Source: Kaistella montana (GTDB lineage Bacteria > Bacteroidota > Bacteroidia > Flavobacteriales > Weeksellaceae). From it: 64,000 nt of DNA. Position 1 is the stretch's first letter. Each line of letters opens with the position of its first letter. Position numbers and translations under genes: made by a program. Under the pieces are notes generated by a model. It made no database searches, was not told the DNA's origin, and was given only the letters and a program-made list of their open reading frames with translations. The stretch is taken from positions 248,001 to 312,000 of the forward strand of contig NZ_JANFQP010000002.1 of assembly GCF_024436175.1 (NCBI RefSeq), in the 5' to 3' direction. Below, one piece after another: positions 51,177 through 55,200 of this stretch.

Positions 51177-52457
51177 TTATATTCCGAATTCTTTTTTGAT
51201 TTCCTCAACTTTGTCGAGTTTTTCCCAAGTGAAAAATTCTAAATTATCAATCTTAAGTTCGTTGCTTTTTCCTTTATTAAAAGTTTTGCTTCCAACATAA
51301 TAATCTCTTCCCATGTGGCCATAAGCAGCGGTTTCCTGGTAAATTGGATTTCTCAATTTTAAGTTCTGCTCGATTGCATAAGGTCTTAAATCAAATAATT
51401 TTTGGACTCTTTTTGCTAAATCTCCATCAGAAATTCCCACTTTGGAAGTCCCGTAAGTATTAATAAAAAGTCCACAAGGTTCCGCCACACCAATTGCGTA
51501 AGAAACCTGTACCAAAACCTCATCTGCAACTCCTGCAGCAACTAAATTCTTAGCGATATGTCTAGTTGCGTATGCCGCACTTCTATCTACTTTCGATGGA
51601 TCTTTCCCTGAAAATGCACCTCCACCATGAGCTCCTTTTCCTCCGTAAGTATCTACGATGATTTTTCTTCCTGTCAAACCTGTATCACCGTGAGGTCCGC
51701 CGATTACAAATTTACCGGTCGGATTGATATGATATTTAATTTGATCATTGAAAAGCTCCTGTATTTCTAATTTTTGAGCAGCTTTCACTTTCGGAATAAG
51801 AATTTCGATGATATCTTTTTTAATTTTGGCAAGCATCGTATCTTCGCTTCCGAAATCATCATGTTGAGTAGAAACCACAATAGAATCTATTCTGATTGGC
51901 TTGTGATCATCAGAATACTCAATGGTAACCTGTGATTTTGCATCGGGACGAAGATAAGGTATCGCATCCCCTGCTCTTCTAAGTGCTGAAAGTTCTCGTA
52001 AAATAGTATGTGCCAAATCCAATGCAAGCGGCATATAATTTTCAGTTTCGTTGGTGGCATATCCGAACATCATACCTTGATCTCCTGCACCTTGCGCGTT
52101 GGCTTTCGTTTCGAAATCTGCATTTTCACCAGCTCTGTCAACACCTTGGTTGATATCCGGTGACTGCTCATGAATAGCGGAAATTACTCCACAAGAATCA
52201 CCATTGAACATATATTCGCCTTTGGTATAGCCAATTTCGTTGATTACTTTTCTGGCGATATCCTGTACGTCAAGATAAGCTTCCGATTTTACTTCTCCCG
52301 CCAAAACCACTTGTCCGGTTGTTACCAATGTTTCGCAAGCAACTTTCGATTTGGGATCGTAGGCTAGAAAATTATCGATTAGAGCATCAGAAATCTGATC
52401 TGCTACTTTATCAGGATGTCCTTCCGAAACGGATTCAGACGTAAATAAATATGACAT
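51177..52457 (-). CDS. metK: S-adenosylmethionine synthetase
   Basis: 426 aa. Makes SAM from methionine and ATP. Signatures: [20 protein letters not shown] at the N terminus, [12 protein letters not shown] (~120-131), [18 protein letters not shown] (~285-302). Longer than the ~384-aa E. coli enzyme, as usual in Bacteroidetes. A ~140-base leader separates its promoter from the start codon and holds a SAM-II-like aptamer (52528-52580). Confidence 0.98.
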
Positions 52458-52515
52458 TTCTTTTGTATTTTATTAATTAAAAAATAAAGAAAATAGGAAG
52501 TGATTACAAAAGAAA

Positions 52516-52538
52516 CTAAAATAGAAATTCTGTTTTAG
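52516..52538 (-). promoter_or_regulatory. Possible alternative hairpin in the metK leader
   Basis: CTAAAA and TTTTAG (6 bp, 11-base loop on the minus strand), followed by TTTCTTTTG. The 5' arm is also part of the SAM-II-like pseudoknot, so the two folds exclude each other. Weak stem; role uncertain. Confidence 0.3.
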
Positions 52539-52580
52539 CATTTTTTATGGAGGTTGCAATCAGTTCAAATTTTTCCTCAT
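52528..52580 (-). ncRNA. SAM-II-class riboswitch candidate in the metK leader
   Basis: Minus strand. P1 is GAGG (52578-52575) with CCTC (52553-52550). The P1 loop carries CTG-ATT-GCA, which pairs with the downstream TGC-TAAAA-CAG to make an H-type pseudoknot. The landmarks TTGCAA before the P1 3' arm, AAAAATG before GC, and GCTAAAA after it match the SAM-II aptamer as I remember it (Sargasso-sea metX RNA). The adjacent gene is metK, the right target. The spacing from P2 to the start codon is about 73 bases, more than in proteobacterial examples. Confidence 0.7.
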
Positions 52581-52595
52581 GAAATTATTCGTCTG

Positions 52596-52626
52596 CAAAT
52601 TTAAAGAGTATTTGTTGAACCGCAAA
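52596..52626 (-). promoter_or_regulatory. Promoter of metK
   Basis: Minus strand: TTTG (52623-52626), 19-base spacer, TAAATTTG (52596-52603), followed by CA. The transcript would start just before the riboswitch. Confidence 0.7.
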
Positions 52627-52646: not shown

Positions 52647-53591
52647 CTATTGAGGTTTTACACTAACAAAATCCTCCGGATTTTTGTTATAACTGAGTTT
52701 TGCATGAAGTGAATTTTGAATAGACTGCGTCATTTCATCCAAAATTTTCTGTTTATAGGTAGGTTTGTAATAAATCAAACTGATTTCTCTAAAAGGAAAT
52801 GGCTTTCGGAATCTGACAATTTTAGATTTCTGTTCATCCGATAATTGGGGAATCGCCAACTCTGGAAGAATGGTAATTCCGCCCACTTTATCTACCATTT
52901 GAATTAAAGTATTGATATTGGAAGCCAAAAAATCAAGGTTTTTAGGTTTCAATGAGTTTTCTTTGAGCATGCAAATGTTCTCGAACTGGGTTCTCAAACA
53001 GTTTCCTTCCTCGAGTAACCAAACTTTATTGCTGTCAATATCTTCCGGAACTACGAAAGAATCTTTCTTCAAATCTTCCGACGAATAAATCATCAATTCT
53101 TCATTAAAAAGATGCTGTTGGTAAAATTCGCCTGCTGCATCGTAAGGAGTAGCGATAATTCCTGCGTCCAGCTCACCAGATTTCAATGCTTTGATGATGC
53201 TGTCGGTAGTCATTTCTTTTACATTCAACTCAATTTTAGGGTTAAGTTTTAAGAAATCAAAAATTTCTGAAGGGAGAATAAAACTTGAAATCGTTGGGAT
53301 GATTCCGAGGTTTAATTTTCCGGCCAAAACATTATTAAGAAGGTTGGCTTTATTTTTCAGTTCATTCACAGCATCAATCACTCTTTTGGATTCTTCGATG
53401 ATCTGAATACCAACATCAGTGGTACGAATAGGGTGAGTAGTACGATCAAAAACCTTCACATCCAACTCATCTTCAAACTTCTGGATCATTGCGCTGAGCG
53501 TGGGCTGAGTAATAAAGCAGGCCTGTGCTGCCTTACCGAAATGTTTATATTTATCAACTGCGATAAGATATTCTAATTGCTGAATGTTCAT
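52647..53591 (-). CDS. oxyR: Hydrogen peroxide-sensing LysR regulator OxyR
   Basis: 314 aa LysR-type regulator. The N-terminal winged helix (MNIQQLEYLIAVDKYKHFGKAAQACFITQPTLSAMI) is followed by the effector domain. Cys198 and Cys207 in LLEEGNCLRTQFENICM reproduce the C-x8-C redox pair of E. coli OxyR (Cys199/Cys208). It is divergent from katA. A TATCT-N7-AGATA inverted repeat lies on its own -7 box, so it may repress itself. Confidence 0.95.
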   Translation of the reverse strand: MNIQQLEYLIAVDKYKHFGKAAQACFITQPTLSAMIQKFEDELDVKVFDRTTHPIRTTDVGIQIIEESKRVIDAVNELKNKANLLNNVLAGKLNLGIIPTISSFILPSEIFDFLKLNPKIELNVKEMTTDSIIKALKSGELDAGIIATPYDAAGEFYQQHLFNEELMIYSSEDLKKDSFVVPEDIDSNKVWLLEEGNCLRTQFENICMLKENSLKPKNLDFLASNINTLIQMVDKVGGITILPELAIPQLSDEQKSKIVRFRKPFPFREISLIYYKPTYKQKILDEMTQSIQNSLHAKLSYNKNPEDFVSVKPQ

Positions 53592-53700: not shown

Positions 53701-55200
53701 ATGGACTCTAAAAAACTTACCTCCAGTTCCGGCGCCCCTTATTTCGAACACGAAGATTCCCAAACCGTGGGAGCAAGAGGCCCAGTTTTACTACAAGATT
53801 TTATTTTACAAGAAAATTTGGCGCATTTCGTACGCGAAAGAATCCCAGAAAGAATAGTTCACGCCAAAGGAAGCGGTGCTTACGGAAAATTTACCGTTAC
53901 ACACGATATTTCTAAATACACAAAAGCAAAATTATTTTCTAAAGTGGGAAACCAGTGTAAAATGTTTGCCCGATTCTCAACAGTTGGTGGCGAAAAAGGA
54001 AGCGCAGATACGGAAAGAGATCCACGAGGTTTTGCCTTAAAATTCTATACCGAAGACGGAAATTGGGATCTTGTTGGAAATAACACGCCAGTTTTTTTCA
54101 TTAAAGACGCTAAAAAATTCCCAGATTTTATTCATACCCAAAAAAGAGTACCGAAAACCAACCTGAAAAGCGCAACCATGATGTGGGATTTCTGGAGTTT
54201 AAATCCGGAATCGCTTCACCAAGTTCTTATTCTAATGTCGGACCGTGGAACACCTTATGGATATAGACACATGCATGGTTTTGGATCCCATACTTTCTCC
54301 ATGATTAATACTGAAAACGAAAGAGTTTGGGTAAAATTCCATTTCAAAACACAGCAACAAATTAAAAATTTCACCAATGATGAAGCAGTGAAAATGAAAG
54401 GTGAAAACCCCGATTTCGCACAAGAAGATTTGGTAAATGCCATCGAAAACGGCGACTTCCCGAAATGGACGATGTATATCCAAGTGATGACCGAAGAACA
54501 AGCCAAAGAATTCCGTTGGAATCCTTTTGATGTGACGAAAGTTTGGTTTCAAGACGAATTTCCATTGATAGAAGTGGGCGAAATGGAACTCAACAAAATT
54601 CCAAATAATTATTTTGCTCATGTGGAACAATCTACTTTTTCACCAAGCAATTTGATCAACGGAATTAGTTTTTCACCCGACAAAATGTTACAAGGAAGAT
54701 TATTCTCCTATCCCGATGCTCACCGATATAGAGTTGGCGTAAATTCACATCAACTCGAAGTAAATCGTTGCCCGTTTGCGGTAAATAATTATCAAAGAGA
54801 TGGTTTCATGGCAGACTCGAGCATTTATAAAGATGCACCCAACTATTATCCAAATAGCTTCGATGAAATCAAACCAGATTCGGCTTACAAGAGTTTCGAA
54901 TATGATTTAGATAACTCATCAGTCGCTCATTTCAACCGAAACGAAAACGATGACGATCACTACACCCAACCCGGATTATTGTACACCAAAGCTATGAATC
55001 CTCAGGATCGCGAAAATTTGGTTTCAAATATTATCGGAGCAATGAAAGGAATCAGTGGTCCTAAAAGAGATGAAATCATCAACCGACAACTTTGCCATTT
55101 TTTCAGAGCCAATATTGAACTCGGAATGAAAGTAGCGATGGGACTACAAGTGAATATCGATATGAACATGATGAATCATAGCAAAAACGGTGATTCATAA
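53701..55200 (+). CDS. katA: Catalase (heme, small-subunit type)
   Basis: 499 aa monofunctional catalase that splits hydrogen peroxide. Distal His54 in [12 protein letters not shown], Asn in GNNTPVFF (127-128), proximal heme Tyr337 in [12 protein letters not shown]. Length fits the small-subunit clade. No signal peptide, so cytoplasmic. Divergent from oxyR, which likely controls it. A strong terminator follows. Confidence 0.97.

Follow-up and report, generated by a model that had tools for sequence, protein, structure and literature searches.

Riboswitches of the SAM-II class have been on record in Bacteroidetes for some time. It was reported from the Bacteroides group as early as 2005 (PMC1273637), and Table 1 in the main text of Weinberg 2010 (PMC2864571) carries the entry 'SAM-II long loops, Bacteroidetes, marine, RF01726'. 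The platforms described for SAM-II riboswitches act through intrinsic terminators or by hiding the Shine-Dalgarno sequence (PMC2258182, PMC9373788, PMC6061858). Flavobacterium johnsoniae belongs to a phylum without Shine-Dalgarno sequences, and in this organism structure in the start region tunes initiation (PMC6847099). No description of a flavobacterial SAM-II platform was found in the SAM-II literature consulted, which included the main article PMC2864571. Riboswitch control of translation in Bacteroidetes, which lack Shine-Dalgarno sequences, seems little studied, hence the interest of the platform considered here.

The leader of metK was characterized in a 64 kb window, the whole stretch of Kaistella montana DNA analysed. 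A SAM-II candidate had been predicted at this position and presented as a new flavobacterial variant. That novelty does not hold, because the 2005 and 2010 records precede it and RF01726, as entered in Table 1 of PMC2864571, already is the flavobacterial version. The aptamer is not new, and by itself amounts to routine annotation. What may be new is the expression platform, which formed no part of the original prediction: a predicted strand swap that would conceal the start codon at high SAM levels, in organisms that do without Shine-Dalgarno sequences.

The metK leader and its SAM-II aptamer

The metK reading frame (51177-52457, minus strand) encodes an S-adenosylmethionine synthetase of 426 aa, 65-83% identical to its relatives in named genomes, nearly all of them Bacteroidota. 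Just upstream lies an OxyR-like LysR regulator (52647-53591, minus strand), divergent from a catalase-like gene (53701-55200, plus strand); judged by eye from the translations, gene content suggests a peroxide-response pair. The Bacteroidetes-type promoter proposed for metK (52596-52626, minus strand) was found as described, with TTTG (52626-52623), a spacing of 19 nt and the -7 box TAAATTTG (52603-52596), which lies a short way before the aptamer. Of 214 related leaders, 204 had a TAnnTTTG box in the 60 nt before P1 (median distance 15 nt), whereas shuffles predict 7%. The putative transcript start is near 52590.

The sole riboswitch found in the window by the Rfam covariance models was RF01726, SAM-II (long loop), at 52525-52584 on the minus strand. 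The match reached 63.5 bits, where the gathering score is 44 (E 7e-10, calculated over all 64 kb), and was aligned over the full length of the model, positions 1-60 of 60. P1 is formed by GAGG (52578-52575) and CCTC (52553-52550); stem and long loop together occupy 52550-52578, and the loop holds the 5' strands of P2, CTG (52563-52561) and GCA (52557-52555). These pair with TGC (52540-52538) and CAG (52532-52530) in TGCTAAAACAG (52530-52540), with TAAAA between the two. All of these elements had been named in the original prediction. Its span, 52528-52603, was too long at one end: given the limits of the covariance-model match, the aptamer begins slightly inside 52603, and 52596-52603 is the promoter -7 box. 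The aptamer end lies 67 nt from the metK ATG (52457), or 72 nt when counted from CAG; the original prediction had given 73 bases. A short reading frame of six codons, ATGAGGAAAAATTTGAACTGA, runs across P1 at 52559-52579 (minus strand); its ATG is found in just 14 of 214 leaders, and it was taken as a chance occurrence.

The pairing of P1 was then followed in the 214 related metK leaders. These had been gathered by a sequence pattern that fixed part of the core, so the near-invariance of the core among them is not independent evidence. The pattern set the letters G[AT]GG and CC[AT]C without requiring the two A/T letters of P1 to pair. There the change was cleanly compensatory: 165 leaders had GAGG/CCTC, 48 had GTGG/CCAC and one had a mismatch. 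The two outcomes named beforehand as speaking against the original prediction, a missing covariance-model match and stems not upheld by compensatory changes, were not observed. We conclude on these sequence grounds that the metK leader carries a genuine SAM-II riboswitch, a predicted binder of SAM.

Conservation and distribution of the aptamer

The SAM-II aptamer was present in all 35 other genomes of the genus searched, in 85 of 100 relatives and in 341 of 393 genomes of the order, in which it is near-universal. One apparent absence (G067) reflected a contig edge and no true loss. The gene downstream was metK at 84 of the first 85 aptamer loci, and the remaining locus lay at a contig end. Four complete Flavobacteriales genomes (G050, G292, G051 and G071) had no SAM-II aptamer before metK; inspection of these leaders (L276-L279) by eye revealed none of the platform elements described below, pointing to joint loss or absence of aptamer and platform.

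Among 41 leaders from the genus and its near relatives, 96.6% of P1 and P2 cells were paired, as compared with 20-49% in slid controls, with one double change. Across the 214 leaders the GCA/TGC part of P2 was near-invariant, its letters being partly set by the search pattern, and the lower part, CTG/CAG, was looser. In one clade (L054, L055, L060-L063, L065, L066, L069 and L071) the letters following GCTAAAA are CCGA and not CAGA, so that lower P2 loses its middle pair (column 17/49); the score of the aptamer nevertheless stays above the gathering threshold. In another family of the order (L083, L084 and L085, from G062, G077 and G088) some aptamers span 103-108 nt, with about 45 added bases between P1 and the A-rich strand that look able to form a hairpin of their own. 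Candidate second copies in four Chryseobacterium-like genomes were below threshold (30.9-31.8 bits) and were rejected: one (L272, 1501-1554) is a chance match inside the ffh reading frame, and the others (L273-L275) are likely the same.

A candidate expression platform downstream of the aptamer

In the unconstrained minimum free energy (MFE) fold of the leader the aptamer did not appear; instead, TGATTGCAA (52562-52554) in the P1 loop was paired with TTGTAATCA (52509-52501), hereafter the anti-aptamer strand. This helix encloses an anti-P2 hairpin (52515-52539) formed by GCTAAAA (52539-52533) and TTTTAGT (52521-52515), which occupies the SAM-binding strand and is mutually exclusive with P2. 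In the 41 leaders from the genus and its near relatives the hairpin core CTAAAA/TTTTAG was invariant, and 97% of cells in the anti-aptamer helix were paired, as against 17-52% in slid controls (p=0.017 versus shuffles for this leader's helix). The RNAalifold consensus independently picked both the anti-aptamer helix and the anti-P2 hairpin.

A second helix of 12 bp is predicted between the start-masking strand GTTTCTTTTGTA (52516-52505; p=0.010 versus shuffles) and the A-rich start region TACAAAAGAAAT (52467-52456), which runs into the ATG (52457-52455). It was 83% paired in the 41 leaders, with six double-change cells; slid controls reached 45-54%, and the paired percentage exceeded that of all 500 shuffles. 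The anti-aptamer and start-masking strands share five bases, TTGTA (52509-52505), so the two helices are mutually exclusive. The start helix joins A/U-rich stretches, and some genomes of the genus (G004, G016, G026 and others) have it shortened or broken. Changes in the anti-aptamer helix at the genus level were one-sided (for example, G-U to G-C), with no double-sided covariation there, and nearly all lay on the free strand. This is as expected if the loop side is held by ligand binding, and double-sided covariation therefore calls for a wider comparison.

For this comparison the 214 leaders were clustered at 70% identity of the sequence from aptamer to ATG, giving 110 clusters. A complement to the P1 loop beat dinucleotide shuffles (p<=0.05) in 41 of them, where 5.5 were expected and control targets gave 4 (upstream bases) and 10 (coding bases); a complement to the start region did so in 20 of 110. 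When partners were exchanged among 102 leaders, pairing became weaker in both helices (z -7.9 and -7.4; permutation p 5e-5). The pairing partners themselves vary by lineage, as in TGTGCTGATTG/CAATCAGTGCA, GGATTTGGC/GCCAAGTCC and ATGATTGCAA/TTGCAATCAT. In two genomes of family f8 (G091 and G099), the strand ATCGGCTATCTT has two possible partners, the loop sequence TGGCTGAT and AAGATGGCT, which covers the start codon. Sharing of one strand by the two helices was not above chance over the 110 clusters (21% versus 19%). It was accordingly rejected as a general feature and is proposed solely for this genus and the few other lineages in which it is clear, namely G060, family f8 and L240. Neither pairing was strong in the largest other cluster (L019), which comprises 29 Chryseobacterium-like leaders. 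Taken as an expression platform, these pairings are a well-supported prediction.

Proposed control of metK and comparison with described SAM-II systems

Coupling between the aptamer and the start region was examined in silico. When the aptamer was forced in ViennaRNA, the start region lost more accessibility than it did in shuffled leaders (Wilcoxon p=1.6e-6). In this leader accessibility fell from 0.54 to 0.25, or from 0.66 to 0.26 when folding began at the putative transcript start, in a calculation that excludes pseudoknot, ligand and metal energies and does not give the balance between states. These results are consistent with a feedback OFF switch in which the riboswitch represses translation of metK by masking the start site when SAM is abundant, a reading drawn from sequence and modelling to which we assign a probability of roughly 0.65. 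In the absence of SAM, the strand at 52501-52509 would bind the P1 loop, and the SAM-binding strand would be locked in the CTAAAA/TTTTAG hairpin; the aptamer would be undone and the A-rich start region left open (ON). In the presence of SAM, the P1/P2 pseudoknot would form first during transcription and withhold its loop. The freed strand at 52505-52516 could then form 12 bp with 52456-52467, covering the region from -10 up to the AUG, and initiation would be blocked without any Shine-Dalgarno sequence. By the time the anti-aptamer strand emerges, the aptamer has been complete for about 30 nt, and ligand binding in the course of transcription could thus settle which fold forms.

The pseudoknot might instead control translation or mRNA stability alone, with the anti-aptamer and start pairings merely shaping the ligand-free fold. 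Such an arrangement would fit the lineages in which the pairings are weak or absent, and the SAM-II riboswitch of Sinorhizobium meliloti also stabilizes mRNA (PMC9373788). However, the pseudoknot ends 67 nt upstream of the ATG, too far for direct masking, and the excess of complements, the partner swaps and the accessibility coupling all favour a linked platform; we regard control by the pseudoknot alone as unlikely. The same distance argues against covering of a Shine-Dalgarno sequence by the bound aptamer, and no GGAG-like site was seen by eye before the ATG (AATACAAAAGAAATG).

Control of transcription by SAM is distinctly unlikely. The U-rich stretch beyond the CTAAAA/TTTTAG hairpin would act as an intrinsic terminator, or Rho would act once translation stops. 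Alphaproteobacterial SAM-II platforms are mostly predicted terminators (PMC2258182, PMC1273637), and TTTCTTTT does follow the hairpin in this genus. However, the hairpin stem is almost entirely A-U, the stretch behind it is not U-rich in G066, G098 and G073, and terminator-like sites were absent from this leader and occurred in 3 of 110 leader clusters, as compared with 1.5 expected, on which a terminator platform was rejected. Moreover, because the hairpin is built from aptamer bases, termination would take place in the absence of SAM, the opposite of what metK would need. It is very improbable that the fold has been kept for another ligand or as a degenerate relic, since the core positions persist over 214 leaders and the gene is a SAM synthetase throughout, even though one P2 base is unpaired (column 17/49) in 11 of the 41 genus-level leaders.

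Start-site masking may extend beyond this genus. A shared platform in flavobacterial SAM-II riboswitches would consist of a leader strand that co-varies with the P1 loop and swaps between loop and start region, so that SAM sets start accessibility in mRNAs without Shine-Dalgarno sequences; the strand would be spelled differently in each lineage, for example as GTTTCTTTTGTA here, AGGCAT in G060 and GGCTATCTT in G091. We put forward this generalization tentatively, at a little under an even chance. The setting is a central metabolic gene with an aptamer found across most of the order, and the leader offers short, exactly mutable elements with which to ask if control by a metabolite can run through start-site structure alone.

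The closest described system is RF01726 itself (PMC2864571), also from Bacteroidetes: the aptamer here is the same from end to end, and no difference between the two was found. The SAM-II/metA element RF00521 (PMC1273637) and its S. meliloti representatives before metA and metZ (PMC9373788) are likewise H-type pseudoknots attached to a gene of the SAM pathway and expected to act as OFF switches. SAM-V (RF01826; PMC6061858) has a related pseudoknot and binding core and acts on translation, but membership in that family was rejected, as the element here reached only 18.1 bits, far under the gathering score of 41. In its proposed level of control the metK leader resembles S. meliloti metA, which is also under translational control (PMC9373788). 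The difference lies in the platform: whereas proteobacterial SAM-II riboswitches use terminators or a hidden Shine-Dalgarno sequence, neither of which was found here, the metK leader would mask its start region, 67 nt beyond the aptamer, with a separate strand.
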